Under the pieces are notes generated by a model that made no database searches, was not told the DNA's origin, and saw nothing but the letters and a program-made list of their open reading frames with translations. Shown here piece after piece: positions 1 to 15,224 of a stretch of 52,251 nt of DNA. Each line of letters starts with the position of its first letter. Within the stretch, counting starts at the first letter, position 1. This DNA is from an uncultured Schlesneria sp. (GTDB lineage: Bacteria; Planctomycetota; Planctomycetia; Planctomycetales; Planctomycetaceae), in the NCBI GenBank assembly GCA_903858935.1, contig CAIOKO010000135.1:1-52251 (forward strand), given 5' to 3'. A program made the position numbers and the translations under genes.

Positions 1-289
1 ACCTCACAAACTCTGCTCGCTGAACCATTATTGATGACTTCCAAGACATGACATCCCCCTTTCACAGGGGATCTTCTCACATCACCTACGTGTTACCCAT
101 GTCCCCGAACGCGCGCCACCTATGTGTCCAGTCTATACACTCAGGGGCCGGTGGAGAGTTTGTCTTAATGCGATTAGGTGCGAGTTAGCTTTTCAGTCGT
201 TGCTTCGACCGACGCGGGGTCGGTGGAGAGCATGAAGTTTGAGATTCGCAACCACTCTTTTTTCAAATGACCCCTGTTTTTCCAACGAA
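1..289. other. Non-coding left edge with possible IS-end motifs
   Basis: No convincing gene is visible. Around 85-140 two similar motifs recur, CACCTACGTGTTACCCATG and CACCTATGTGTCCAGTC, followed by GTCTATACAC. This layout resembles transposase-binding sites at the ends of IS481/IS3-type elements, but no transposase lies in the window. At 150-235 the phrase CGGTGGAGAG occurs twice, about 70 bp apart. An IS end or remnant is a guess. Confidence 0.3.
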
Positions 290-418
290 ACCCCACCGCC
301 TCCGCGGCGGTGGTCACCGGGCCTTTGCCCTAGCCCGAACCATCATTCACCGAGACGCAATATTTTTTAAATTCCTAGGGCAAAGGCCCGTTAACCACCG
401 CCGCGGGGGCGGTGGGGT
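290..418. repeat. Left copy of a ~130-bp palindromic element
   Basis: Arms at 290-333 and 375-418 are inverted repeats matching at 41 of 44 positions, with a 41-nt loop. The arms contain ACCCCACCGCC, GCGGCGGTGGT and GGGCCTTTGCCCTAG. A diverged second copy in the same orientation lies at 12030-12155 and keeps both the arm sequences and the loop motif CCATCATTCAC. The pair brackets the phage-like module. It resembles a MITE-like or REP-like mobile palindrome. It could also fold as a strong RNA hairpin and end transcription of the tail genes. Confidence 0.75.
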
Positions 419-472
419 GAGAATCCTTTGCGGCGTTGCTCGTTGTCTCAGCCACCTTTTAATTGTCACAGA

Positions 473-1213
473 TTATCCCCTTTCGTGAGGAAACCCGACG
501 AGCGGGACTATTGACCTGAATTTGTAAGACCAGTTCACCGTGTATTCGAGAGGAACACCGCGTTCCATTTTCGGGCTGGAGTACGTCACTTGATTGCAAT
601 CGGCGCTACCGGAAAACGCCGCTGGAAAGATCGGTGATTCCGGGAACGGATTGGGGGTTCGTTTGGTCAACGAACCCGTTTGAGTCGCATAGAAAAACGA
701 GTTGGTTGATACCGCTTGCTGGATTGGCATTCCGCTTAATGGCAACCGTTCGATCATGATGGGACCTCCGAAGTTGTCGCTGAACGAAAGTTGTTCGGAA
801 TAGGCCAGGATCGTGTCAGGCGAAGAGATGAATGAATCCATCTGCAGGCCAAACGTGTAATGCAGGTATGTCACAGTTTCGGCGCCACCCATTTCCCCAT
901 GTGAGACGGGGTTCGTGACGATGACGCCGCCGATTGCGTTGGCGTTGTTCAGCCAGAACGGAGTTTGGGATTCATTATTGTCGAGAAACCCTGCAGAGTA
1001 ACCGTTCACCGAATAGGCGTTTCGGATCGCCGCTAATGATGCGAGTACTAAGGACTGGCTGTTAGGTCCCTGCTGGACGATCTTGCCTTTCATCGACCAG
1101 GATTCGCGGAAGATGTTGGCGCGTTGAGTGGGCGAATATTGAATCATTCGCTGGATTCCAGCGAAGTTCACTTCCCCATTCGGATGAAAATAACCGCCGT
1201 AATAGAATTTCAT
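473..1213 (-). CDS. Putative distal tail structural protein
   Basis: A 246-aa protein that I do not recognise by sequence. It is rich in Ser, Thr, Asn, Gly and aromatic residues, with no signal peptide or membrane segment, as is usual for beta-rich virion proteins. It is the last gene of the minus-strand capsid/tail module and starts 7 bp after the tape measure gene ends. In siphophages this position normally holds a distal tail or tail-tip protein, so that role is inferred from position only. After its stop, 54 bp separate it from the left palindromic element. Tail fibre or host-specificity genes that would normally follow are not seen before the window edge. Confidence 0.75.
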   Translation of the reverse strand: MKFYYGGYFHPNGEVNFAGIQRMIQYSPTQRANIFRESWSMKGKIVQQGPNSQSLVLASLAAIRNAYSVNGYSAGFLDNNESQTPFWLNNANAIGGVIVTNPVSHGEMGGAETVTYLHYTFGLQMDSFISSPDTILAYSEQLSFSDNFGGPIMIERLPLSGMPIQQAVSTNSFFYATQTGSLTKRTPNPFPESPIFPAAFSGSADCNQVTYSSPKMERGVPLEYTVNWSYKFRSIVPLVGFPHERG

Positions 1214-1220
1214 TTGCTGC

Positions 1221-3377
1221 CTACTTGAACCAGAACGACATTGACTTAATGTTCTTCGCGAAGGCTTCCTGCTGCGACTTCAGCGTGGTTTCCAGTTGCG
1301 CAAAGAACTCGTCTGCGGCGAACGCTTTCTCCATTGCCTCGACAAGCTTCTTCACCGCCTCTTCGTTTTTCTGACCGAAGTCTTTGACGCGACGGAGAAG
1401 TTCAGGCTCTTCCTTGTCCTGATTTTTCTGGGCTTCGTCCGCTTTTTCCTGACTCTTTTTCAGTTCCGGCTTAATCGTCCACAGGCCAGGACCGTCGCCT
1501 CGTCGTTCGGCTTCCGCCTTGCCAAAGTCGTGTTCCTCAGTCCCTTGAGGCGCGTTGGCCAGCCCCTCCATGTCGAATTGCGTGATTGCCGATCGAGGTA
1601 GCTTTCCTGCTTTAACCGCTTGTACTTTGGCAGTTAATGCCCGAATGCGGGTTCGTTCGCCGGGGGTGGCGAACCCGACTGATCGTTTTATCCCTTTGAT
1701 TTGTTCCTTATCCGCTTCCGCATTCCGTCGTGTTTCCGCGGTGATCGCTCGCAACGAATTAAGTCTTTCTGCAGCGGCTTGTGCTTGCTGCTGTCCGACA
1801 GCGACGTTTTCCTTGTTAATTTTGACTTGCTCCTGCAGTTGCCTGGCAACTTCACCGGCGCGGCCCACCTCCATTTCTTTCAGGTCATTCTGAACCGACT
1901 GATGTTTCTGATCGCGCTGGGATTCCGTTTTGTTTCCGAGGATCGATTGACCGATGGCTTTACGGGTGCGGTGGAAGTCGCCAGCAAGATCACTCGTCGT
2001 ATCGACCAGAGACTTGCCGTACGACGTCCTTCCAAGCGTCTGTTTTGCATTTCGGTACAGCCACCCCGAGATCGTTGGTCCAGCGGGAACTGCTGGCGGG
2101 GCCGGTGGAGGAAGAAGTTCTTTCTTTTTTGCTGCGATCTTTCGCTGATAGGCTTCTTCAGATGTTTTCCTGTCTGAATCGAGCTTCGCCTGTGCGGCGG
2201 CGAGTTCCTTCGGCTTCTGGTTGACGTGTTCCATCACGTTTTTCGCAGCGTCAGCTCGTTCGAGCAGGTCCTGGTGCCTCTCGGCCCTTGATCTCACTTC
2301 CTGTTGCCTGCTGAAGTCATTTGGAGAATTCGCTTGCTCCTGTCGAATCTCCGCTTCGGTTGCTGATCGACGATGTCCGTTCAGGGAGACCTGACGAATC
2401 TCGCCGAAATTCGGTTTCGCGTGCATGAGCTGCATTGACTGATCAACGTGGCGACCGACGGCAGCATTTGCGGCAGTTTCTTCGATTGTTCGATATTTTG
2501 TCTGGTCAGCCCGTTGCTCTTCTTCGAGCTTTTGCGTCGAGATATTCAGATTTCGTAACGCGACGGCGGTGGCAACTGCCGCTGCTGCAACCGCCGTCCA
2601 GGGGTTGAGCAAAACCGAGGGGTTGAAATGTGGAATCGATGTTTCCGAAGGGCCGCCGCCGTGAGCTGTCGCAATCTGGTGTACGACGTTTCCAGCGCCA
2701 GTTCCGAGTACGTTGAGTGCCGGAAGCAGCTTTGCCAAAACGCTCGATGAATTAACAACCGATGTACCCGCTTGCGTGGCGATGTTCGCTGCCTGGGATG
2801 CCGACGTGGCCGCTATGGTGGCCGCAGTCGATGACCCACTGACGATATTGGCGATCTGTTTAAACAGCACACCAACCGTTGAAAAGGTCGTTCTAATACC
2901 GGACAAGATCGCGGATTGCGCCGACGACGCGACCGAGTTTGCAGACTGTGTTGCCAACAGCTGGTCGGGAGAAGCGGCGACAGGTTTTTGAAACGACGAG
3001 ATTGACGGAACTGCAGGAAGAGGCGCAGCGGGATTGGATTGAGCGACCTTGAGCTCCCTGATCGCCTGTAACATCGCCGCCATGTCTCCCCGCATCTCCG
3101 TAATCCCGGGATGTGAGGATGTCGGCGTCGGCGAGGCATTGCTGACAGGATTGGCCTTTTGGCCGGTTGAGGTCATGTTTGTAAGAAACCCATTAAGCAA
3201 CGAGGCTGATGCTAACGACGACACCCCCGCATTCGAGGATTGTGCCGGCAATAGTGACGGACCAGGGGTTGCCCGAAGCTTGTCAAGCTGGTTTTGCACC
3301 TGGTTGATCGCCGACGTAACCCCACTGACGCCGTTTAGCGCCAAGTTGATCACGACGTCCCTGACCGTGGCTGGCAT
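1221..3377 (-). CDS. Putative phage tail tape measure protein
   Basis: A 718-aa protein. The first ~250 residues are Ala/Ser/Gln-rich and predicted helical. One hydrophobic Ala-rich segment follows at about 260-275 (PWTAVAAAAVATAVALRN). A long charged coiled-coil region rich in Lys, Glu, Gln and Ala then spans about 280-690. The C-terminus is amphipathic (FAKNIKSMSFWFK). Length, helical composition and position after the tail tube and chaperone-position genes all fit a tape measure protein, which sets tail length and can assist DNA passage. It is short for a tape measure, implying a short tail of roughly 100 nm by the usual ~1.5 Å per residue rule. Its start overlaps the upstream gene by 28 bp, suggesting translational coupling. 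Confidence 0.75.
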   Translation of the reverse strand: MPATVRDVVINLALNGVSGVTSAINQVQNQLDKLRATPGPSLLPAQSSNAGVSSLASASLLNGFLTNMTSTGQKANPVSNASPTPTSSHPGITEMRGDMAAMLQAIRELKVAQSNPAAPLPAVPSISSFQKPVAASPDQLLATQSANSVASSAQSAILSGIRTTFSTVGVLFKQIANIVSGSSTAATIAATSASQAANIATQAGTSVVNSSSVLAKLLPALNVLGTGAGNVVHQIATAHGGGPSETSIPHFNPSVLLNPWTAVAAAAVATAVALRNLNISTQKLEEEQRADQTKYRTIEETAANAAVGRHVDQSMQLMHAKPNFGEIRQVSLNGHRRSATEAEIRQEQANSPNDFSRQQEVRSRAERHQDLLERADAAKNVMEHVNQKPKELAAAQAKLDSDRKTSEEAYQRKIAAKKKELLPPPAPPAVPAGPTISGWLYRNAKQTLGRTSYGKSLVDTTSDLAGDFHRTRKAIGQSILGNKTESQRDQKHQSVQNDLKEMEVGRAGEVARQLQEQVKINKENVAVGQQQAQAAAERLNSLRAITAETRRNAEADKEQIKGIKRSVGFATPGERTRIRALTAKVQAVKAGKLPRSAITQFDMEGLANAPQGTEEHDFGKAEAERRGDGPGLWTIKPELKKSQEKADEAQKNQDKEEPELLRRVKDFGQKNEEAVKKLVEAMEKAFAADEFFAQLETTLKSQQEAFAKNIKSMSFWFK

Positions 3378-3754
3378 TGGTTCTCAATCATCCTCAATAA
3401 AGTCGTTTGAAACTCGACAATCCTGGCTCTGTTCACCGATTCAATCACGCCACGAATAACCGCTGCGTTGCGTCTCACGACCGAATCGACAGGGAACTGA
3501 CCGACCGCTTCGCACTCCTGATAGTGCTCGTAGCAAAGTTCATTTTCGGGACTCAACGATTTCGGATTTTCCGGGGTTCCCTTCGGGCACCCTCTGTCAG
3601 GGTCTCGACATGGTGCGAGAAATGCCGGTCCGCAATTGAGCAATCGCAATTCTGGCCTGCCATCTCGACCTCGTTCGAATGCCCATGTGTCGTGATTGAC
3701 CACGTACTTTTGACAAAGGTTGCAGTCCATCTCAGCAATGCGGGGATGCCTCAT
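3350..3754 (-). CDS. Cys-rich phage-module protein, possible zinc binding
   Basis: About 134 aa from the ATG at 3754; a GTG at 3766 is the upstream alternative. The N-terminus has a CNLC pair. Further Cys follow in LNCGPAFLAPC, RGCPKG, LCYEHYQEC and near the C-terminus (NQC). The spacing suggests a small zinc-binding fold. The segment ECEAVGQFPVDSVVRRN matches a motif I recall from planctomycete prophage proteins, with no assigned function. It lies between the chaperone-position gene and the tape measure gene, where many siphophages express a tail assembly chaperone extension by frameshifting. No slippery heptamer was obvious at the boundary. The role is unknown. Confidence 0.7.
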   Translation of the reverse strand: MRHPRIAEMDCNLCQKYVVNHDTWAFERGRDGRPELRLLNCGPAFLAPCRDPDRGCPKGTPENPKSLSPENELCYEHYQECEAVGQFPVDSVVRRNAAVIRGVIESVNRARIVEFQTTLLRMIENQCQPRSGTS

Positions 3755-3774
3755 AAGAAGACGCACCCCGTCAG

Positions 3775-4191
3775 CTAGTTTTTTACTTGTTCCGCATCAG
3801 TTGGCCTTGCCTCTTCATTCGGCTTCACGTCACTCGCCAGCGTACCCCGAAGAATTCCGTACAGCCGAGTAAACAGGTACGGGTGAATCCGTTCGCATGC
3901 AGCCGCCGTGACGGGAACGTCATGAATGCCGACGTCTTTCAAGGTCCACGAGTCGATGCGGGATGCTACGAACTTACAGGCGATCTGTTCGGCTCGCTCG
4001 GCACATTTTGGGTCGAATTCTTTGTTCCGGACTGCGACCACAATTTCTGCATCAAGTCGAGTGACGTCCATGCGAGTGGCCGGTCGGTAAGTGAATTCCA
4101 GGTCGTCATACAATCGCTCGCCAGACTCTTCCGGTACTGCGGCTGCGATATAGCCCGTTCTTGTGTAACCATCCGAAATATACGATCCCAT
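3775..4191 (-). CDS. Small protein in the tail assembly chaperone position
   Basis: A 138-aa protein starting MGSYISDGYT. The ATG at 4191 has a good ribosome site (AAGGA, about 7 nt upstream). An in-frame TTG at 4233 would abut the preceding stop but lacks such a site. The protein is soluble, mixed alpha/beta, with FTYRPATRMDVTRLDAEIV near residues 35-52. Many chaperone-like tail proteins carry a similar 'Y-R-P...' segment early. It sits between the tail tube and tape measure genes, which is the usual place for the G/gpG-type tail assembly chaperone. The function is inferred from position and size only. Confidence 0.75.
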   Translation of the reverse strand: MGSYISDGYTRTGYIAAAVPEESGERLYDDLEFTYRPATRMDVTRLDAEIVVAVRNKEFDPKCAERAEQIACKFVASRIDSWTLKDVGIHDVPVTAAACERIHPYLFTRLYGILRGTLASDVKPNEEARPTDAEQVKN

Positions 4192-4233
4192 TTTCGATTC
4201 CTTTTTCAAAAAAGTGTTGAGAAATGACTTCAA

Positions 4234-5139
4234 TCAAGCAGGCAACGTGACGACCAGTTCTTCGGTCGAACCGCTTGCGTAGGCCTGGTACTCCACCGGC
4301 CAACGCAAATGTTGTCGACCCGGAACGACGACTGATTCCGACGGAGCGAGCAGTTTTGCGAACGTCATCGAGAAGGTGTTTGTGCCGTTTGTGAACGAGA
4401 GTGATCCCGTCGCTGGATTTCCCGACCGATTCGCGTTGAACAGTGTTTGTTCTGTTGACGTGTATTTTGTTTGCAGGCTGAGTTTGATCACTCGGTCGGT
4501 CGGCTCCAGATCTGTAGCGGTCTGTCCCTGCATGTAGGTCGGCTGGATCATATGGTCGATCGTCACTTCGAACTTATCGATCGAATACGCCGTTCCCGAG
4601 AGTGTTACTCCGCTCGCGAGGTCGTAAAACATGTACGGTCTGATTGTCGTATCGATCGCCGGAACTGTATTCGGGAATGATCCGGCGGCACCTTGTGACA
4701 TTGTTTTTCCAACACACGACAATGTCACCTTCAGTTTTTCGCCGGGAGCCGACTCGAACTTGGCCTGGTTAACTCGAAGCAGATACGTGTTGACCTCAGT
4801 AACATTGTCGAGCATGACATACAGGTCCGTGAGTGCGTCGGCTTGAGCATATGATCCACCGCTCGATGCCGTGCCGAGAATGAACGGCATGAAGACGGCC
4901 AGTTCTGCGGGTGTCGGAGTCAGCACCAGATCACCAGCGACCTTGATTTTGCCGAGCGCAACGCGGCTGATATCCCGCGACCGACTTCCCCGCAAGCCTT
5001 CGTCCGCCACGATTTCGATCGATTCCTTGATCGAGTGCGATTGGAGTTCGAACCGCACGGAAGAACTGTTAAACGTTGTTGTTCCACCTCCAAACGGATT
5101 CACTGCCGCCTGGCTTTTATAGCCCATTGCTTCTGTCAT
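4234..5139 (-). CDS. Phage major tail (tube) protein
   Basis: A 301-aa protein. The N-terminal half has alternating hydrophobic and polar beta-strand patterns (SVRFELQSHSIKESIEIV, DISRVALGKIKVAGDLVL, KLKVTLSCVGKT). These are typical of tail tube proteins, which stack as hexameric rings. The C-terminal part (LSGTAYSIDKFEVTIDH onward) repeats a similar layout with long polar loops. Starting residues are MTEAMGYKSQ, with AAAGG about 8 nt upstream of the ATG. It comes after the tail terminator-like gene and before the chaperone-position gene, as in lambda and HK97-like modules. The identity is inferred from fold-like pattern, size and order. Confidence 0.75.
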   Translation of the reverse strand: MTEAMGYKSQAAVNPFGGGTTTFNSSSVRFELQSHSIKESIEIVADEGLRGSRSRDISRVALGKIKVAGDLVLTPTPAELAVFMPFILGTASSGGSYAQADALTDLYVMLDNVTEVNTYLLRVNQAKFESAPGEKLKVTLSCVGKTMSQGAAGSFPNTVPAIDTTIRPYMFYDLASGVTLSGTAYSIDKFEVTIDHMIQPTYMQGQTATDLEPTDRVIKLSLQTKYTSTEQTLFNANRSGNPATGSLSFTNGTNTFSMTFAKLLAPSESVVVPGRQHLRWPVEYQAYASGSTEELVVTLPA

Positions 5140-5228
5140 GTTTCGGACCTTTCTATTTGTGCTGATGAGAAACTGGCGATTGTGATGCCTCGCCCTCTCG
5201 TCGGATTACGAGCAATGTTTGCGCTCGG

Positions 5229-5555
5229 TTACTTCGTGTTCCCAATGGGTTGAGACCCCTCCATCGTTGCCTCTTTCTGTTCGATAACCGGTGGGTTTTC
5301 AGCCGGCCTTTCAATCTGAATGGCGACGGAATCCGAGTACGTATCCACGACGACAGGTGCCTCGTTGTCGACATGCGAAAGGGGCGCGTTCAGCTTCGTT
5401 ATGAGTTCCTGGCTCCAGACATGTGCCGCTGTGATGGCTTCTACGATTGACGTGAACGGACCCCGAACCACTCCGTCTCGATAAACCGTTGTCAGAAATC
5501 CTTCATCAGTTGTTTTCGAAGGTTCTGGAACAACGTGACAGCCATTGATATCCAT
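5229..5555 (-). CDS. Hypothetical phage-module protein
   Basis: About 108 aa from the ATG at 5555 (MDINGCHVVPEP), chosen because AAGGA lies about 8 nt upstream. The longer reading frame to 5612 begins inside the spacer and lacks a ribosome site. It contains a compact predicted domain (TTVYRDGVVRGPFTSIVEAI, then a helix) and an acidic, Pro-rich tail ending QKEATMEGSQPIGNTK. No family is recognised. It lies between the tail terminator-like gene and the tail tube gene. Confidence 0.65.
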   Translation of the reverse strand: MDINGCHVVPEPSKTTDEGFLTTVYRDGVVRGPFTSIVEAITAAHVWSQELITKLNAPLSHVDNEAPVVVDTYSDSVAIQIERPAENPPVIEQKEATMEGSQPIGNTK

Positions 5556-5690
5556 GATGAGTATCCTTATCCAAAAAGCGTGTCGTGACTGATTTATTTG
5601 ATGCGACCCCAAATGAAGACAGTCTCCGTGATCATCGAAGCGGCTTCGCCAGAAATGTGGGTTTGAACGGAGTTTGTGACGAAACTGCCG

Positions 5691-6134
5691 TCATGTTCGC
5701 GGTTCCTGAAAAAAGGCTCGAACGACAAGTCCGCTGACGAACGCGTTGCGATCAAACCACGCTCTGGGTTCAACGACGTTGCCCGGTTCAACCGTGAGTT
5801 GATAGTTCTGGCCGAGTCCCGCGATCGAATGATTGTTCAATGTTCTTCGCAGGGCCTGCCTCCACCCGAGCCGCGTTTCGAGTGAAGTCACATCCGGTTT
5901 CGCGATGATTTCGACAAGCACCCCGTAATACGCTCCGTCACGGTCATTCAATTCGTCACCCAGCTTTTCTGGTCCATAGGGAGAGATCGAAACGAACGGC
6001 AATCTCTTTGTTCCGTCCAGGTAGGTTGAGACTTCCTGGATCAGTGTTCCGCCAGTCAGTCCCGGCAGGGAGAGTCCATCGATCAATGCTTTGATCGCGG
6101 TCAGCGTGTCGAAATGATTCGAGATTCCCGGCAT
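5691..6134 (-). CDS. Putative tail terminator/minor tail protein
   Basis: A 147-aa protein starting MPGISNHFDTLTAIKALIDG. The ATG at 6134 shares one base with the TGA of the upstream gene (TGATG) and has AAAGGAGA upstream, so the longer frame to 6161 is rejected. The N-terminal helix (ALIDGLSLPGL), the central VSISPYGPEKLGDELNDRDG and the strand YGVLVEIIAKPD fit the general layout of tail terminator or neck proteins, which cap the tail tube at the neck. About 150 aa is a usual length for that class. It directly follows the head completion-like gene, again the expected position. Confidence 0.7.
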   Translation of the reverse strand: MPGISNHFDTLTAIKALIDGLSLPGLTGGTLIQEVSTYLDGTKRLPFVSISPYGPEKLGDELNDRDGAYYGVLVEIIAKPDVTSLETRLGWRQALRRTLNNHSIAGLGQNYQLTVEPGNVVEPRAWFDRNAFVSGLVVRAFFQEPRT

Positions 6135-6481
6135 CAGGCGATCTCCTTTCGTACAACGCATTGCCAGACAGTCCTGAGGGACATCAGGCGAGCGGATACA
6201 ACACGGTAATTTGTCCCACCAATCGTGATCTGGTCCCGCGACCGGATTTCTCGTCCGTTGGTGGTGGGATTCAGTTCAGAGTCAGGAATCTTGACGACGG
6301 TCTCGTCACTTTGCAGATTCAGATTTCCGTATGCAGAAAGGTGTAGGTCCAGCGGTTTGAGCCAGGCGTTGGACACTTTGACAGTGATGGGCGAAGCACT
6401 GTCGGGAAGCAGTGTTAACACAGCGGCAAGTTTCCCCGGAACGAGGCTGATGAGGGCTTGCGCGATAGATTGATTGAGCAT
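6134..6481 (-). CDS. Putative head completion/head-tail joining protein
   Basis: A 115-aa protein. The second half, IRSRDQITIGGTNYRVVSAR, is a small beta-barrel-like signature resembling head completion proteins ('r.G..i.i.G..y.v..v'), which seal the connector beneath the portal. The start ATG at 6481 has AGGA about 6 nt upstream. The stop overlaps the next start by one base. The gene follows the gp6-like connector, as in HK97-type modules. Assignment is moderate, based on motif style, size and order. Confidence 0.7.
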   Translation of the reverse strand: MLNQSIAQALISLVPGKLAAVLTLLPDSASPITVKVSNAWLKPLDLHLSAYGNLNLQSDETVVKIPDSELNPTTNGREIRSRDQITIGGTNYRVVSARLMSLRTVWQCVVRKEIA

Positions 6482-6489
6482 TGTGGTTC

Positions 6490-7149
6490 CTACACGGGAA
6501 TGGATCGATAATTTGCCAAGATTGATTCGACGCTTCCTAACAGAGTGGCTGCGTCACGCGGGCTGAAAAAACTGACGTGTGCGTCTTCGTAACCCATTTG
6601 TGACGCGGTACCGCCAAGCGACGCCTGTGAGGCTTGCTTGAGGATCAAGGCGTTGACGGCCATGGTGATCGGCGGTGGTATGACCGGGTATCCCGCCGTA
6701 TATTGAACCTGGATATTTCCATTGGGAATTCCAGGCAGATTGCTGAGCACTCCGAAGGCTCGTGTCGGCGGCCGACGCCATATCGTGCCGATCCGCCGAA
6801 GAAAACCCGTTGATCCCTGCCCATTCGCGCCTGACATCAAGGCGAAATCGACTCCCTCAACAAGATTCAACGAGGGAGCAAAGCAACCTGGCGCTGTACC
6901 GAAGTAGCCCAGATCATCGACACAGACGAGCGACACCGCGGTGACAGGGTGTTGGCGCAGCAACAGGAGCGGCGTGCCATTACCCGAATGGTATTCGACG
7001 TAATTTGTCGATTCGAGGTCACGATTCAGATGTTGTTTAATGAGCGAGGTGATTCCATCAATCAGCGACCGAAGCTGGGCATCGCGGCTGGTGTCACCCG
7101 GCGCGATGCCTCCTTGAGTCTTCACGGAATTCAGTGTTGTCAAAGCCAT
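6490..7149 (-). CDS. Head-tail connector protein, gp6-like
   Basis: A 219-aa protein. It opens MALTTLNSVKTQGGIAPGDT, followed by RDAQLRSLIDGITSLIKQHL and NRDLES. This 'L..vK..L.i...D...D..L..lI..as..i...l.R.l' pattern is characteristic of gp6/gp15-like connectors, which form a ring below the portal. The later GNIQVQYTAGYPVIP is also typical, followed by a C-terminal helix (PPITMAVNALILKQA). The presence of a connector makes the absence of a portal gene from this module notable. It is slightly long for the family because of a loop around residues 80-130. Confidence 0.85.
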   Translation of the reverse strand: MALTTLNSVKTQGGIAPGDTSRDAQLRSLIDGITSLIKQHLNRDLESTNYVEYHSGNGTPLLLLRQHPVTAVSLVCVDDLGYFGTAPGCFAPSLNLVEGVDFALMSGANGQGSTGFLRRIGTIWRRPPTRAFGVLSNLPGIPNGNIQVQYTAGYPVIPPPITMAVNALILKQASQASLGGTASQMGYEDAHVSFFSPRDAATLLGSVESILANYRSIPV

Positions 7150-7179
7150 GGTGAACTCAAAAATAAGGTTAGCCAGTGT

Positions 7180-7362
7180 TCATTCGGGAGGGCGAAGCTC
7201 CCACCGAGCCGCGATGTCGATGGGCACACCAATTCTTCGCTCCACGTTCAATACATTTCCCATGCTGGGAATCAGGCGACTCAGCGGGAGCATCGCCCTC
7301 CCGACAGGCTTGACCAAAAAACTTATCGCAGAAGGTCTGTCGCGGACCTCAAATCGTTTCAT
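7180..7362 (-). CDS. Small hypothetical phage-module protein
   Basis: A 60-aa protein from the ATG at 7362 (MKRFEVRDRPSAISFL). The start overlaps the end of the preceding gene by 14 bp in another frame, consistent with translational coupling. A GTG 24 bp further upstream is possible. The end, NVERRIGVPIDIAARWELRP, has no charge bias suggestive of chance. It is retained because it fills the gap between two genes in the same direction. Function unknown. Confidence 0.5.
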   Translation of the reverse strand: MKRFEVRDRPSAISFLVKPVGRAMLPLSRLIPSMGNVLNVERRIGVPIDIAARWELRPPE

Positions 7363-7660
7363 CGACTTGAGGTGGCGCAGCAGCACTTAAGACTCCTGCG
7401 TCATCAATTGCCGCATCGCGTTGACCGCTGCCGACAACCGAGTCGTCGGCAAACTCATCGCGGTCCGCTTCATCATCCAGACCATCGAGTGGATCGGGAT
7501 TCAGGTATGCCGGCAGTACGGCAAGAGCCACTGCCTGAGCAGCAGCTTCCCAGGCCATACGGCCGACATGGGGCAGGGCGGTCCATCCGGGAAATGCGGG
7601 GCCACCCGATTCGGCGTGGATCCGAACATAAGATTCATAGGCAGTAAAACCGTAACTCAT
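7349..7660 (-). CDS. Hypothetical phage-module protein with acidic tail
   Basis: A 103-aa protein from the ATG at 7660 (MSYGFTAYESYVRIHAESGG), preceded by GAGGG. The longer frame to 7792 overlaps the upstream gene heavily and is rejected. Residues 1-52 form a compact region (PGWTALPHVGRMAWEAAAQ). Residues 53-95 are strongly acidic (DPLDGLDDEADRDEFADD). Such acidic small proteins are common between capsid and connector genes, but no family is recognised. Confidence 0.65.
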   Translation of the reverse strand: MSYGFTAYESYVRIHAESGGPAFPGWTALPHVGRMAWEAAAQAVALAVLPAYLNPDPLDGLDDEADRDEFADDSVVGSGQRDAAIDDAGVLSAAAPPQVDETI

Positions 7661-7667
7661 CGTACCC

Positions 7668-8096
7668 TCACTTTGCCGATGACAATTGTTTGGCGCGGCT
7701 GACGACAGCGGGAAACAAAGCCCGCGCCTGATTAATTTCGGGCTTTCCCCAACCATACGGTTCGTAGAACTCGGCACTCGGATGAGCGTCAAGATCGGCG
7801 AGTGCCGCCTGGACCTTCTGCAAGTTTCCCCACGCCCTGGACATCAAATTGATGGGGTGGGTCCGTTTGAGATTTGGTGCGCAGGCCAAATCCAACGGGT
7901 TCGTCTCTTCTTCGAAGAGATCTTTCTTTCCAGATTGCAAATCTTTTGCGGTGCTGATGAATACTGTCGCATCTCGAAAGCAGTCGATCGCCAGTTGACG
8001 CGGATTGACTCCCGATTGCGGCGAACGTCCCTTGAAGAGTTCCAGGGCGATGAAGGGAAGACTAAGTGTTTCCGTCGACTTTTCAGAACCTGTCAT
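7668..8096 (-). CDS. Hypothetical phage-module protein
   Basis: A 142-aa protein starting MTGSEKSTETLSLPFIALEL, with AAGG about 10 nt upstream of the ATG. It is mostly helical. It contains NPRQLAIDCFRDATVFI and ends with WGKPEINQARALFPAVVSRA. No family is recognised. It lies between the decoration-type gene and the small acidic protein gene, separated from the former by a 218-bp spacer with nested inverted repeats. A capsid-associated or assembly role is possible, without direct evidence. Confidence 0.65.
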   Translation of the reverse strand: MTGSEKSTETLSLPFIALELFKGRSPQSGVNPRQLAIDCFRDATVFISTAKDLQSGKKDLFEEETNPLDLACAPNLKRTHPINLMSRAWGNLQKVQAALADLDAHPSAEFYEPYGWGKPEINQARALFPAVVSRAKQLSSAK

Positions 8097-8148
8097 GAAG
8101 TAGCCTTTTTAATAATGGAAGCAGGAAGTGAACGATGTGGATTTCACG

Positions 8149-8276
8149 TCACCGTTCACGGGCCGGGGGCTGACGCATTTTCATGGCGAAAAACACCAAC
8201 CTCATTTGAGTCGCTCAAGTCTGATTTGTGCATTGCCCATAAGAAGGGGGCTGTCCCCCGGCATTGCCCGTGAACG
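8149..8276. repeat. Nested inverted repeats in a virion-module spacer
   Basis: CGTTCACGGGC near 8151 is answered by its exact reverse complement GCCCGTGAACG near 8263. Inside lie CCGGGGGCTGACG, a GGGGGCTGTCCCCC hairpin, and GCATTGCC paired with GGGCAATGC. The sequence CGGGGGCTGACG recurs in GC-rich hairpins at 16.4 kb. On the minus strand the inner hairpins could act as a terminator, attenuator or processing site between the decoration gene and the following genes. Confidence 0.5.
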
Positions 8277-8314
8277 ATGATTCATCGTCCGGTAAACGAA
8301 TTGTCGAATGTGGT

Positions 8315-8818
8315 TCAGATCAACTCATTGGGGGTCGTGCTTTGTGCGTACTTGATCCCATATGCGATGTAGAACGCTGCTCCGAGTTGTGGGTTGGCCC
8401 CCGTAATCGGGATCGAAAGCTGGACAAAGCTGAACCCGTTATTCATATCGAGATCGGTTGGCTGCACTTCAACCGCAATGACAGCGGGTGAGGCCGCGCT
8501 GACGGGCGTAAACGTATTCGCGGCCGCCTGTGTTGTAACCGTCCATTGTGGCGTTGTTGCGATCGCGCCGATTTTGGTACGAGCACGAGTGAACGTCAGC
8601 GATTTGGCACCTGCGCCGGTATTGCTTGTGGCCTGTTTCAATGTGATGACCGGATCATCACCGGCGGTCCCCGCTGCTTTGAATAACACGCACAGCAATC
8701 GGCCAATGTACTTCATATCGACCCATTGACCACCGTTGGCGGATGTATGCAGATCAGCAGGGACAAATGCTGGAACAATGTCGGCAATTTCGAGAAATTC
8801 GTGATTAAAGTCGGTCAT
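8315..8818 (-). CDS. Putative capsid decoration/structural protein
   Basis: A 167-aa protein from the ATG at 8818 (MTDFNHEFLEIADIVPAFVP), chosen for the GGAGA about 7 nt upstream. The longer frame to 8926 has no ribosome site. The protein is beta-rich and small-residue-rich (VIAVEVQPTDLDMNNGFSF, FVQLSIPITGANPQLGAAFY), a style common in capsid-surface proteins. It follows the major capsid gene after a 228-bp spacer, the usual place for a decoration or stabilisation protein. The role is inferred. Confidence 0.7.
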   Translation of the reverse strand: MTDFNHEFLEIADIVPAFVPADLHTSANGGQWVDMKYIGRLLCVLFKAAGTAGDDPVITLKQATSNTGAGAKSLTFTRARTKIGAIATTPQWTVTTQAAANTFTPVSAASPAVIAVEVQPTDLDMNNGFSFVQLSIPITGANPQLGAAFYIAYGIKYAQSTTPNELI

Positions 8819-9046
8819 AGAGATCTCCAGTTGTGAAAAAAGTTTGCAGGAAATGTGTGTCGTGGACGCAGCGTCTTCTCTTTTGTCGAGGCAATCGAAG
8901 AGCACAGGGTGACCGAAAACGGTCATCCCGTGGCACCCGAATTTTTTAGCTCTGGCATGGCATCAGGCGCGTACTTTCCACGCCATGGGTGCTCGTTGTC
9001 GATCACTCATGCTCGTCTAAAACGACCAGGGTTGATGGCAAACGGG

Positions 9047-10336
9047 TTATCGGGGTGCGATACAGACAAAGCTCGATTGAGTGTTCGTCCCTTTGAACGG
9101 AGTGATCGGACTGTTCTCCCAGGGCGCGGCGTTCATTCGCATCGTGAATCGCAGTGCGAGTTGGTCGGTCAGGAATTCAACATGCATTGAAATGGCCTGT
9201 GCGATACCCCCCTTACTGATCGACAGCACCTGACTCAAATCGGCCAGGACGATGTCCCCTTGCGATCCGAGAGTGCCGGCGAATTCGATCGGCTTCAGTG
9301 GGCGACCACCCAGCGTGCCGTATGGCGACGCTGACAGCCCTGTCGGTGGCATGTAGACCAGTTGTCCTGAATAGGTCCCTGTCGCCAGAGTCAACTGCAT
9401 CAGTTGCTGCATGCAATCCTGGTTGAGGTACCAGTTTGCGTTGCCGAAATAGGGAGCGAAAAACCGGTTCTGAGCTTTGATGATATTCGCCGCCACGATG
9501 GTCGCAGGCGACTGGCCTACTTCGGCCGCGATTGCCAGCAAGCTGGGCGCGTTCAGAATCCCGAGCGGCTTTCCAACCCCATCGCCGTTGAAGAGAGCAT
9601 CACCGATCATGAAGTTGAATTCTTCAGAGGCCTTGCGCGTCACGTACTGCTCGAGTGCTTGTGCGCTGTCCGAGATCAACTCATCGGTGAGATAAACGAC
9701 CACGGCCAGTTTCTGCAGCTTCATCTGGATTTCACGGACAGATGGCTTGCTGGCCGTAATCGTCTGGCCTTCACCAGTCCAATATCCCCGCAAACCACCG
9801 TGTCGACTGCCATTGGCCCGTGACGTTTCTGCATTTGCCAGAAACGTCATGTTGTTTCCACCGACCGTATAGTTGTCGGTCGAAGCAACCAGGTCATTCG
9901 AATAGACATGTTCAAAAATCTTATGATTGAACTCAGGCATGACGGTAAAGCCGCCATCCGAACCGATTGTCTCGGACATTCCCTGGATCGCCTTGAAGTG
10001 CGATTTACAGCGATCATGGAATGCCGCTCCCTGATGTCCGTCGAATCCGCTGCGAACAAAGTCGCTGAGCGATTTGAATTCGCCCCAGGGTCTGTATCCC
10101 TTTCGAATCAGTGATGACATGGCAGATTGAGACTTCAGCCGGCGGCCTGCTCGTGGTCCGTCAAGCTCATCGCGACCGGTGACGATGGTCACGGACTCAT
10201 CCGTTTCGGACCATTGTCCGGTGATTCTCCCTTCCGGATCACGGTGGATACCACTGAAGTCGGGTTTTTCGGACAGGCTTTTGACCGTTCCCGTCAATTC
10301 GGACACTTGTTTCGTCAATTCTTCAATCGTCGGCAT
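9047..10336 (-). CDS. HK97-fold major capsid protein
   Basis: A 429-aa protein. The N-terminal coiled-coil stretch (PTIEELTKQVSELTGTVKSL) resembles an HK97 scaffolding delta domain. The capsid domain begins near residue 115 with SETIGSDGGFTVMPEFNHKI, the typical 'gG.lvp..f...i' opening. It continues with the E-loop region, then QKLAVVVYLTDELISDSAQAL and FNGDGVGKPLGIL, all hallmark positions of the family. The C-terminus ends with FLTDQLALRFTMRMNAAPW. It follows the protease gene after 126 bp. The delta domain is presumably removed by that protease during capsid maturation. Confidence 0.92.
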   Translation of the reverse strand: MPTIEELTKQVSELTGTVKSLSEKPDFSGIHRDPEGRITGQWSETDESVTIVTGRDELDGPRAGRRLKSQSAMSSLIRKGYRPWGEFKSLSDFVRSGFDGHQGAAFHDRCKSHFKAIQGMSETIGSDGGFTVMPEFNHKIFEHVYSNDLVASTDNYTVGGNNMTFLANAETSRANGSRHGGLRGYWTGEGQTITASKPSVREIQMKLQKLAVVVYLTDELISDSAQALEQYVTRKASEEFNFMIGDALFNGDGVGKPLGILNAPSLLAIAAEVGQSPATIVAANIIKAQNRFFAPYFGNANWYLNQDCMQQLMQLTLATGTYSGQLVYMPPTGLSASPYGTLGGRPLKPIEFAGTLGSQGDIVLADLSQVLSISKGGIAQAISMHVEFLTDQLALRFTMRMNAAPWENSPITPFKGTNTQSSFVCIAPR

Positions 10337-10462
10337 GGAACATTCTTTCTAATAGCGAAATGCGATTCGAAAATAAAAACGTAAAATCCGTGGCGTGTAT
10401 TCGTGGCACGCTAAGAACAGGCGTATTAATCCCCGTTGCGAAAGGGGGTGGATTGTGGTGAG

Positions 10463-11053
10463 TCATTTTTTGATGCTACCGACCAATCCAGCCAGTTCGT
10501 GAATCGACTTTTCCAGCATGGCAAGCTTGGATTTGTCGATGTCGGCCTGATGAGACTTTGATTGCGACACCAATCGAGCCATTTGTCTCGCGACACCATT
10601 CAGAATGCGGCGTTGATCGGCCGTCAGGTTTCTTGCACCGACCATCCCCTTCAGTCGTGACCCCAGTCCAAGGACTTGAAGTGAGGCGATTCGACCGGAT
10701 GCGAGGAACGCCTTCATGGCATCGTCATCCTGACCACCCGTATCCTCATCCGCTTTAAGTGCAGGCTGATCTGGATAATTCGACGAGTGGATCCCCTCGA
10801 GTGCCGCCAGTTGTTCTTGAAGCGAGGCGAGGATGTCGCTTAACCCGTCTTTGACGGCAGGATTTTCGAGCGGTCCCATGGCGTCTTCGATGTTGTGGCA
10901 CGCGGCAATCAGCGATGCGTGGACCGACGACACAACCGTCGAACCATAAGGTTGGTTTCCCGTTCCGTCGTCGTTCTCATTCGATTCGACAGGGCTGTCA
11001 TCGATCTCGGAATCTGTGTCATCGTCGTCTACTGGCTGAATTGAGTCTGTCAT
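10463..11053 (-). CDS. Nested scaffold protein from an internal start in the protease gene
   Basis: An in-frame ATG at 11053 (MTDSIQPVDDDD, residue 233 of the protease) is preceded by GGAG with a 6-nt spacer (CGGAGAAAAGA). This is one of the best ribosome sites in the module. Initiation here would give a 196-aa acidic, helical protein without the catalytic domain. Lambda Nu3 is made in the same way inside gene C. The sequence shows the site; its use is inferred. Confidence 0.5.
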   Translation of the reverse strand: MTDSIQPVDDDDTDSEIDDSPVESNENDDGTGNQPYGSTVVSSVHASLIAACHNIEDAMGPLENPAVKDGLSDILASLQEQLAALEGIHSSNYPDQPALKADEDTGGQDDDAMKAFLASGRIASLQVLGLGSRLKGMVGARNLTADQRRILNGVARQMARLVSQSKSHQADIDKSKLAMLEKSIHELAGLVGSIKK

Positions 11054-11749
11054 TCTTTTCTCCGTTGAAATTCCAATACCAAAGCGTTTCAAAGGCGTAA
11101 CCACAGCGGTTAGAGACTTCATGATCGAGGGGGTAATTGGCTGGCCGCCGAGGCGATTTCGATGAAGCGTTTTTGCCACGGCATCGGGGTTAACGCCGAT
11201 TGCACACCATGACCATTCCTCCAGATCCCATTCTTCCACGATCAACACGTCACCCTCGATCGGGTCGTGCTTGAGGCGGGACTTGATCGGCGTCTCACGC
11301 ACCGATGTCGCCCTGACGATTCCCTCGTCGATCAGTTCGAAGATCTGAGCTGCTTCGAGTGACGTCTGAGAAAACCACGACGTCGCCTGAACGTCCTCGT
11401 CGGTAACCGTCACAGCCACTTGTCCATCCGCATCGCGCGAAGTCCCGATCGGCTGGCCGATTCCTTCCAACCCATGCGCCCACATGACGACGGGGTTTTT
11501 CGAGTAATTTTCCAAACGACAACCACGGGGAATCAGCAGGTCACCAACTCGGTCGATCGTGGCGGTCGAGATCACTGCCCGCGCCGACATCGCCTTGCGG
11601 TCGACGTAGGGTTGTCCAGAAAACTCGATCGCCAGTGATCGGCCCGTTGGTGCCAGTTGATAGTGGCTGCCGGGTCGACGGGGTGTGTTCCCAAGACGGT
11701 TAACCCCCTTCGCGTCACTGCGTCTGTTGTTTGTGTGTCGTGTTCTCAT
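10463..11749 (-). CDS. HK97-family prohead protease with C-terminal scaffold-like region
   Basis: About 428 aa from the ATG at 11749; a GTG 18 bp upstream is possible. Residues 38-215 match the prohead protease fold (U35/S78-type). They contain SARAVISTATIDRVGDLLIP, the His in MWAHG (about residue 92) and the Ser in VRATSVRETP (about residue 149), likely the catalytic pair. Prohead proteases are usually 150-250 aa. Here an acidic linker (about residues 240-270, DDDDTDSEIDD) leads to a helical C-terminal domain, which suggests a fused or nested scaffold. The start codon lies in an inverted repeat. No portal or terminase gene precedes it, unlike most HK97-type modules. Confidence 0.88.
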   Translation of the reverse strand: MRTRHTNNRRSDAKGVNRLGNTPRRPGSHYQLAPTGRSLAIEFSGQPYVDRKAMSARAVISTATIDRVGDLLIPRGCRLENYSKNPVVMWAHGLEGIGQPIGTSRDADGQVAVTVTDEDVQATSWFSQTSLEAAQIFELIDEGIVRATSVRETPIKSRLKHDPIEGDVLIVEEWDLEEWSWCAIGVNPDAVAKTLHRNRLGGQPITPSIMKSLTAVVTPLKRFGIGISTEKRMTDSIQPVDDDDTDSEIDDSPVESNENDDGTGNQPYGSTVVSSVHASLIAACHNIEDAMGPLENPAVKDGLSDILASLQEQLAALEGIHSSNYPDQPALKADEDTGGQDDDAMKAFLASGRIASLQVLGLGSRLKGMVGARNLTADQRRILNGVARQMARLVSQSKSHQADIDKSKLAMLEKSIHELAGLVGSIKK

Positions 11750-11796
11750 GGGGCTTATTAAACACACAGGACGACATAAATAAAATATGAGAACAC
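11740..11796 (-). promoter_or_regulatory. Inverted repeat enclosing the protease start codon
   Basis: On the transcript, GTGTTCTCAT (11796-11787) is exactly complementary to ATGAGAACAC (11749-11740), whose first three bases are the protease ATG. The loop is 37 nt and AT-rich. A TGTCGT/ACGACA pair overlaps the same region and would compete. The fold could hide the start codon, or the DNA could be an operator. No regulator gene is in the window. Confidence 0.4.
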
Positions 11797-11856
11797 ATGT
11801 TGTTTCTTAACGTTTAGAAGATGCTCATGAGAAATGGGAAAAAGCGAGTTTGTGGC

Positions 11857-11897
11857 TGCCGTCAAAAAACGGCAAACCCCTGTTCTGAACAGGGGTT
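11857..11897 (-). terminator. Likely Rho-independent terminator upstream of the virion module
   Basis: On the minus strand a perfect 11-bp stem (AACCCCTGTTC with GAACAGGGGTT, 1-nt centre) is followed directly by TGCCGTTTTTTGACGGCA. That sequence is itself a 6-bp hairpin with a T run. The pair would stop transcripts coming from the CehA-like gene before they reach the protease gene, so the virion module probably has its own promoter downstream of this point. Confidence 0.6.
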
Positions 11898-12029
11898 AGG
11901 TTGAGAGTCTCGCTGCGGGGGATTTTTCCCATTGGGGCAACGCGAGAATGTTTTTTCAATAAAACCGAGCTGAGTTGCCACGGTTTTGGTCCGGCTTGAT
12001 GAGCGAGGTATCGCAGACGAGCCTACGAA
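11898..12029. other. Spacer between terminator and right palindrome
   Basis: No gene or clear signal is seen. The stretch is part of the ~440-bp gap between the protease gene and the CehA-like gene; the rest of that gap is the palindromic element and the terminator. Confidence 0.6.
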
Positions 12030-12155
12030 ACCCCTCTGCTCCTGCGGCGCCGGTAAATGGGCCTTTGCACTCGTTCCAGCCATCATTCACGAATGAACAA
12101 TGTAACGCAAAATCCCAGGGCAAAGTCCCGTTAACCACCGCAGGGGCGGTGGGGT
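12030..12155. repeat. Right copy of the ~130-bp palindromic element
   Basis: A diverged copy of the element at 290-418, in the same orientation. Shared parts are ACGAAACCCC at the left, GGGCCTTTGC, the loop motif CCATCATTCAC, AGGGCAAAG, CCCGTTAACCACCGC and GGGGCGGTGGGGT at the right. Its left arm has drifted more than its right arm. It lies just upstream of the virion module, about 11.7 kb from the first copy. Confidence 0.7.
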
Positions 12156-12172
12156 GGGCTCTTTATGAACCT

Positions 12173-12191
12173 TGAACGGTATTGCCGTTCA
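12173..12191 (-). terminator. Weak hairpin at the end of the CehA-like gene
   Basis: TGAACGG and CCGTTCA form a 7-bp stem with a 5-nt loop, overlapping the stop codon of the CehA-like gene. No clear T run follows on the minus strand. The stronger terminator is at 11857-11897. Confidence 0.3.
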
Positions 12192-14693: not shown

Positions 14694-15224
14694 GAATGCT
14701 CTCCGAATCGATGATTTGATCGCAGCAATCAAAGAAAGATCATCGAATTCACAGCGAGAAGAGTCAATCAGCGACAGAAGAAAAGTGTCGGCATCGAAAT
14801 TCGCATCATGAATTTAAGATGTGGCCACCGAGAGTTATTAAGTGTTACCTCGGGTGAGATTTCGATCTCGGTCAATGTCATCTCAAAAACAAATCTCCGA
14901 CACATCTTCCAAACGTTAAGAAGCAACTTGCATTTTCGTATTTACAAGCGATAATATATGTTGTACGAAATATGTCGTTCGTGTATGATATGCAGGTAAC
15001 GTCGAAAAAAGTCAGGAAGGATCTGCGGACTAACATTCCTCAGCTCGGCTGGAATTCGTGGAATCTGTGGCTTGGCGGCGACAATTGATCTTTGACAGTT
15101 GGGAAATCATTGAAACCGGATCATTCCCGCAGCCGCCAACAGGTGGGGGCTGATCCGTGGGAGGCTCGTTGCTTGCCTTACGGGTGCGAGGTCGACTCCC
15201 TGCGGGGTGCGGGAGATAATCGCA
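14694..15224. other. Spacer upstream of the CehA-like gene
   Basis: No gene is seen. The region is AT-rich at 14920-14995, where plus-strand promoter-like sequences lie. 15060-15200 has no recognisable coding or structural signal apart from GC-rich stretches near 15120-15210. Confidence 0.6.
14928..14989 (+). promoter_or_regulatory. Tandem promoter-like elements facing the repeat array
   Basis: TTGTAC (14961-14966), a 17-bp spacer and TATGAT (14984-14989) form a near-consensus sigma-70 promoter on the plus strand. A second candidate just upstream is TTGCAT (14928), an 18-bp spacer and TAATAT (14952). Transcription would start near 14996 and run into the repeat array, where no convincing gene lies. 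Planctomycete promoters are poorly characterised, so this is tentative. Confidence 0.4.

Follow-up and report, generated by a model that had tools for sequence, protein, structure and literature searches.

The 52,251-base window analysed here, the whole of contig C135 (CAIOKO010000135.1) in the 7.93 Mb, 280-contig assembly of an uncultured Schlesneria sp. (GCA_903858935.1), carries an HK97-type head-tail module of 14 open reading frames (ORFs), all on the minus strand between positions 473 and 11767. To judge from sequence comparisons, this module probably derives from a domesticated phage, of which it is the head-tail half and which has been mostly vertically inherited within a clade of Schlesneria, most likely as a gene transfer agent (GTA). 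The predicted packaging half, comprising the large terminase subunit (TerL) and the portal protein, is found with a fibre gene and a lysis-like block at a second locus. A preliminary description of the window had recognised the minus-strand, HK97-type set of fourteen, which is borne out by the 14 ORFs and by family matches of the capsid, tail tube and adaptor. It had also raised the idea of a domesticated or GTA-like particle, now the best-supported reading, but had joined to this a bracket of palindromes, which is not retained, and the borrowing of missing parts, which is not needed. Comparisons drew on 15 genomes of Schlesneria and 170 of the family, which also includes Gimesia, a second genus with a related gene set. 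The window genome is labelled G000, other G numbers denote genomes of relatives (G014, one of the Schlesneria genomes, being closed) and L numbers individual loci or contigs, while the module genes are named w1 to w14 from left to right in the window.

Pfam and PHROG scans of the 14 module proteins gave no terminase or portal family match; the earlier statement that these functions are missing therefore holds for the module locus, but not for the genome. A genome-wide search, as had been proposed, located HK97-type portals in G000 in two places, contigs C48 and C77, the TerL and portal in question lying at a separate locus and not directly beyond the window. On C77 the end of a fibre gene is followed by TerL and a 988-aa portal (L043:3094-6060), and since C77 and C137 end in fibre sequences that are 93% alike, the second locus of G000 appears to consist of C137 plus C77. 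In G012 this locus is on a single contig, in the order membrane-protein-like, lipoprotein-like, 341-aa-type protein, ~460-aa protein, two more, fibre, TerL and portal (the names membrane-protein-like, lipoprotein-like and, below, stress-protein-like were given by eye, and PepF-like and transposase-like, also below, are names assigned in this analysis). The fibre gene, immediately upstream of TerL, differs between genomes and contains internal repeats. TerL matches phrog_979 (E 9e-141), PF03237 and PF17289, and what we take to be its Walker A/B and nuclease-region motifs are kept in all eight Schlesneria copies. The portal matches PF04860 and has a C-terminal extension of ~500 aa in seven Schlesneria genomes (one cut; the G006 portal is cut by a contig end), which is absent from the G014 portal, the Gimesia portal of L088 and the phage portals compared. 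This extension has no Pfam or PHROG match and a single, unusable match in a PDB profile search (E 0.38), and no viral relative of it was found in a search seeded by exact peptide patterns, which remote ones could escape. The 341-aa protein of the lysis-like block (p4691; L027:4691-5716) is strongly conserved, with one viral relative at 66%; it has neither a family match nor a PDB profile match, and its predicted structure is of low confidence (mean predicted local distance difference test score, pLDDT, 31). A papain-like motif in this protein and a GNAT-like motif in the portal extension, both read by eye, were not confirmed and are not put forward here. None of the module and second-locus proteins that were scanned was recognised as a small terminase, small ORFs being only partly covered. 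Among the relatives scanned, the gene before TerL is a small terminase in L277, L279 and L091 (the G022 locus), matches phrog_645 in L145, L143 and L285, and matches nothing in L271 and L273.

The other place found by the portal search, C48 (L018, G000:C48:1-4141), is a 4.1 kb contig with a TerL of phrog_9, an HK97 portal and a ClpP-type head protease, and is probably a piece of a different phage within this assembly. Its terminase and portal are not preferred as the missing partners, given its own ClpP-type protease and a TerL of a different family. TerLs of the PF03354 type occur in only three of the 15 Schlesneria genomes.

The two loci occur together. The module capsid is present in nine of the 15 Schlesneria genomes, the TerL of the second-locus type in eight of these nine and none of the other six, and the corresponding portal type in the same eight; the 341-aa protein is found in the same nine as the capsid and in none of the six, albeit only 29% alike in G014. 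As the module co-occurs with a single type of TerL and portal, it need not borrow these functions from elsewhere. The capsid genome with neither TerL nor portal, G003, is a 390-contig, 94% complete assembly in which the module contig is cut, and the non-carrier G005 has a portal of ordinary length. Across the family, capsid matches (E<=0.001, some weak) were obtained in 28 of 170 genomes and TerL matches in 12, four of them outside Schlesneria. In a tree of rpoB, which was found in 28 of 30 genomes (partial in G006), the nine carriers form a single clade with support 1.000 and five non-carriers fall outside, G002 having given no rpoB. G022, of a different genus, adjoins the carriers (0.910), so that this one-gene tree splits the genus.

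The distance between the loci varies. In the closed G014 genome ~165 kb separates capsid from TerL, and in G010 a single contig carries both, divergently oriented and ~14 kb apart, with a stress-protein-like gene and others between them and both loci within ~36 kb. The right flank of the module is common to G000, G011, G012 and G014: a PepF-like gene adjoins the protease gene in G014, and the CehA-like gene, described before as host-type and likewise taken here as a host gene, intervenes between the two in G000, G011 and G012. Likewise, the genes past the portal are common to G000, G008, G011 and G012. G010 and G001 have different neighbours on the right flank. The left edge of the window is the assembly end, and in relatives the module extends past it with genes for proteins of 417 aa (d417, present in G008, G014, G010 and G001), ~600-640 aa and ~200 aa, with a glycosyltransferase farther out; that TerL and the portal might be joined to the left end of the window is ruled out by this arrangement.

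No tyrosine integrase (PF00589, the one integrase family searched for) was found in G000, G010 or G012 on the contigs that carry the two loci. G014 has none closer to the module than ~220 kb, the nearest lying ~244 kb from the capsid; two other capsid loci of that genome are each accompanied by one no more than ~5 kb away. An intact temperate prophage, contiguous and with its own integrase, is thus not what was found as regards PF00589, serine recombinases being outside the search. The same observations, with the host flanks held in common, the restriction of the hosts to one clade and the separation of Schlesneria capsids from most viral ones (support 1.000), make it very improbable that a living phage or phage-satellite lineage, with two separately integrating blocks, has been re-acquired by each species, despite the existence of related metagenomic viral contigs, some with TerL and portal apart from the capsid, the exchange of tape-measure types and the differing trees of the two loci.

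Selection was gauged from the ratio of nonsynonymous to synonymous divergence (dN/dS) and from synonymous divergence (dS) in five pairs among G000, G008, G011 and G012, dS of more distant pairs being saturated or nearly so for most genes. Values of dN/dS were 0.017-0.029 for the capsid, 0.115-0.142 for TerL and 0.114-0.193 for the portal, and spanned 0.016-0.336 over the module genes; the host genes rpoB and CehA gave 0.006-0.015 and 0.074-0.084, respectively. Values of dS were mostly 0.4-1.2, against 0.38-0.75 for rpoB and 0.58-0.69 for CehA. The module, TerL and portal genes show purifying selection (dN/dS mostly 0.02-0.3) and host-like synonymous divergence, and the ratio near 1 expected of a functionless remnant was not observed, despite single lesions in G000 and G014. 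An old prophage, broken by rearrangement and decaying without function, could account for these lesions, for losses in the Gimesia genomes G045, G048 and G052 and for the failure to recognise a small terminase in the proteins scanned; it is nevertheless improbable when the tested genes have dN/dS values much lower than 1, all nine clade members keep the capsid and eight of nine TerL, and every TerL copy keeps its motifs. Module distances follow those of rpoB with r 0.87 (8 genomes), a descriptive value, as is the r given below, pairwise distances being non-independent. The module proteins also have less carbon per residue than their phage homologues (13 genes, mean -0.035, Wilcoxon p 0.02), a difference given no weight with 1-8 phages per gene.

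Several observations weigh against the mostly vertical inheritance of a working system. TerL-portal distances follow rpoB less closely (r 0.56), and the branching orders differ in the closest four genomes. The tape-measure gene (1221-3377) exists in types that cut across relatives, with G000 and G012 on one side and G008 and G011 on the other, and are 45% identical with a dS of 1.9-2.9, a pattern that is one of exchange between lineages; with dS reaching 2.85, this gene is the exception to the host-like values above. The d417 gene is absent from G011 and G012. In G000 the neck gene, intact at 153-185 aa in G008, G010, G011 and G012, is mostly deleted, with most of its middle gone, and in G014 a transposase-like gene (L017:2351-3760) lies within the putative prohead protease gene; on account of these two lesions, the system is probably broken in some members, perhaps including G000. 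In Gimesia, G045 has lost most head-tail genes, and G043 and G044, both with rpoB, show no capsid match. Finally, some viral contigs also have TerL and portal apart from the capsid, and the split alone is therefore no proof of domestication.

According to the excerpted text of PMC9662315, GTAs can be delimited by six features, three of which are discernible here from sequence. The particle proteins derive from tailed phages, as indicated by the family matches of capsid, tube, adaptor, portal and TerL; the set is endogenised over several loci, ~165 kb apart in G014 with no tyrosine integrase near; and inheritance is mostly vertical, judging by the clade support of 1.000, the r values of 0.87 and 0.56 and the shared flanks, with a weaker case for TerL-portal and the tape measure and with one host gene as the yardstick. 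The other three features are an element that does not fit whole into its own particle, on which G014, with its loci far apart, and G010, with both within ~36 kb, differ; particles filled mostly with random host DNA; and delivery of that DNA to other cells. These three features, along with an anatomy near those of the GTAs BhGTA and FpGTA, are the grounds for calling the system, known from genes alone, GTA-like rather than a GTA. Both loci would be induced under the control of the host, procapsids would assemble on the portal, TerL would fill the heads with any chromosomal DNA at hand, and lysis would be followed by delivery through the tailed particle.

Known systems offer partial parallels. 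BhGTA/VSH-1 (Brachygtaviriformidae) has a conserved single TerL gene outside its structural cluster and co-diversifies with its host, in the part of PMC9662315 drawn upon. TerL thus lies away from the structural genes, as in Schlesneria, a likeness of arrangement; in BhGTA, by contrast, particles and transfer, though not the role of its TerL, have been shown experimentally according to the same partial source. FpGTA of Faecalibacterium, described in 2026, comprises two operons ~125 kb apart in a closed genome (PMC12946183, in part), and so resembles the Schlesneria set in having two separate loci in a closed genome outside the Alphaproteobacteria; its particle is podovirus-like and its packaged DNA has been sequenced, in so far as the excerpt describes them, whereas the Schlesneria set includes a tail tube gene. 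RcGTA (Rhodogtaviriformidae) is phage-derived, spread over several loci and vertically inherited in the excerpts of PMC9662315, with DNA-packaging genes inside its 17-gene head-tail cluster in those of PMC7947584. The first three of these properties are shared by the Schlesneria set, which differs in having TerL and portal at a separate locus. In a PDB search the best matches of the w13 profile were 6tba/6tb9 (E 6e-8), capsid Rcc01687, presumably that of RcGTA; because six of the eight PDB sequences found are other phage-type heads, this match shows fold family and not kinship.

PBSX of Bacillus subtilis, a phage-derived particle like that proposed here, has a killing role. It packages ~13 kb pieces of the chromosome, as given in part of PMC12946183, and is likened to the Schlesneria set by description. 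A PBSX-like particle, packaging host DNA as a by-product and killing rivals, would look alike in anatomy and inheritance, and the variable fibre gene with its internal repeats and the portal extension of ~500 aa, with no viral relative in the search described above, would suit it. The sequence itself, however, offers no reason to prefer killing to delivery, and a Pfam scan of 20 second-locus, distal and neighbouring proteins found no toxin family, which leaves this an unlikely explanation.

The capsids of Gimesia are ~50% alike to that of the module, and of the 12 Gimesia genomes with a match, 10 were read. In all ten, a portal (at least in part), an aminotransferase, a YkgJ-like gene, a protease and a capsid (at least in part) occur in this order, host-type genes thus lying between portal and protease in every cluster, with a symporter gene in the gap in nine. 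TerL is present in nine of the ten and has its best match to a different TerL family. G052 has no TerL and a short portal, and G048 is without w1 and w3. A Gimesia-type cluster is also seen in L105, titled Emcibacter sp. (TerL 61%, portal 44%, capsid 48%), possibly a mis-binned planctomycete contig.

Among viral capsid relatives, 80 of 95 were kept and 37 of these (L135-L171) were compared with the parts of the Schlesneria set. TerL, portal, protease, capsid and tail genes form a single run in L145 and L143, replication-type genes (named from their translations) instead lie ahead of the protease in L140, and the portal of a 99.9-kb viral contig precedes the protease by ~17 kb. IMGVR contigs 3300031251_000022 and 3300050505_000036 have homologous TerL, portal, protease, capsid (56-57%) and tail genes, but differ from the Schlesneria set in their contiguous TerL-portal-protease-capsid-tail order. 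In the capsid tree, viral branches separate Schlesneria from Gimesia, which suggests a separate capture for each. The Schlesneria capsids are interspersed with those of three viral contigs: L135 and L136, both of which may be chromosomal copies, and L142, on a long branch. A second capsid, 70% alike, is found in G008 with three further module homologues on a 4.2 kb contig (G008:C45, L024), which is probably a related phage.

GTAs are known from few groups, and their prevalence is open since they resemble remnant phages (PMC11841831, in the part used). None was found described in planctomycetes in the titles and abstract openings searched, most subscription literature lying outside that search. 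Tentatively, and with somewhat less than even confidence, the Schlesneria set may be seen as a new GTA lineage of its own origin in Planctomycetota, and the Gimesia set as another that was captured separately; the uncoupled packaging half of the Schlesneria set, the lack of a recognised small terminase and the extended portal could then make packaging non-selective and host-controlled. Repeated origin of GTAs would thereby become testable within one bacterial family; all nine sampled clade members have the candidate, which can be compared with phage relatives and for which there is a single closed genome and, in the genus, a named type strain.

The features of the window are listed in the table. 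Nine of the 14 module genes are syntenic, with a role taken from position or without assignment. Synteny of w1 holds in seven of the nine module genomes including G000, the contig stopping before w1 in the other two; w7 is found in all eight other module genomes at 73-94% identity; and w12 has homologues in nine of ten Gimesia clusters and several viral contigs. That w14 is the prohead protease is suggested by its position and by a weak match of its Gimesia homologue to a head maturation protease (phrog_80, E 0.004); its structure was predicted with low confidence (mean pLDDT 39.5). Of the parts named before, the proposed tail terminator matched no family at E<=1. The reduced neck gene between w6 and w7 had been overlooked.

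Features of the head-tail module and its surroundings in the window (positions in the 52,251-base sequence)
Feature	Position	Strand	Description
Palindromic repeat, copy 1	282..417		~136 nt, dispersed repeat
w1	473..1213	-	246 aa, distal-tail position; no family match
w2	1221..3377	-	718 aa, tape-measure position; two divergent types in close relatives
w3	3350..3766	-	Tail-assembly position; synteny; Gimesia homologues 39-48% identical in 9/10
w4	3775..4233	-	Tail-assembly position; synteny
w5	4234..5139	-	Tail tube; PF18906 E 2.4e-19; phrog_290 E 1.4e-18
w6	5229..5612	-	Small protein; dN/dS 0.23-0.34 in five close pairs
Neck-gene remnant (tail-completion/Neck1-like)	5570..5686	-	Between w6 and w7; Gimesia homologue phrog_26 E 1.9e-20
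w7	5691..6161	-	156 aa, proposed tail terminator position; no family match at E<=1
w8	6134..6481	-	Head-closure-like; weak PF05354 E 6e-4, under its cut-off
w9	6490..7149	-	Head-tail adaptor; phrog_442 E 1.5e-20
w10	7349..7792	-	No role assigned; synteny
w11	7668..8096	-	No role assigned; synteny
w12	8315..8926	-	Downstream of capsid; phrog_28483 E 2e-4
w13	9047..10336	-	HK97-type major capsid protein; PF05065 E 1.3e-37; phrog_10
w14	10463..11767	-	Putative prohead protease; phrog_11321 (function unknown) E 1.4e-10; precedes capsid
Palindromic repeat, copy 2	12022..12157		~136 nt, 72% alike to copy 1
CehA-like gene	12189..14732	-	Name from the preliminary description; taken as host gene outside the module

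The CehA-like gene has no Pfam match at E<=1, and Rfam gave no match in the window or in L017, the G014 locus. The two palindromes said to flank the set, each put at ~130 bp, do exist, but as copies of a dispersed repeat and not as a bracket. In G012 and G011 the left copy separates w1 from the following module gene of ~630 aa, and because the palindrome is thus inside the module in relatives, with the module continuing past it, it marks no boundary; as a dispersed repeat it is ruled out as an element end. When 40 of 130 first-look candidates were scored, the repeat at 282-417 had at least 88 matches in G000, corresponding to ~43 places because a palindrome matches on both strands, with the two copies in the window counted in.

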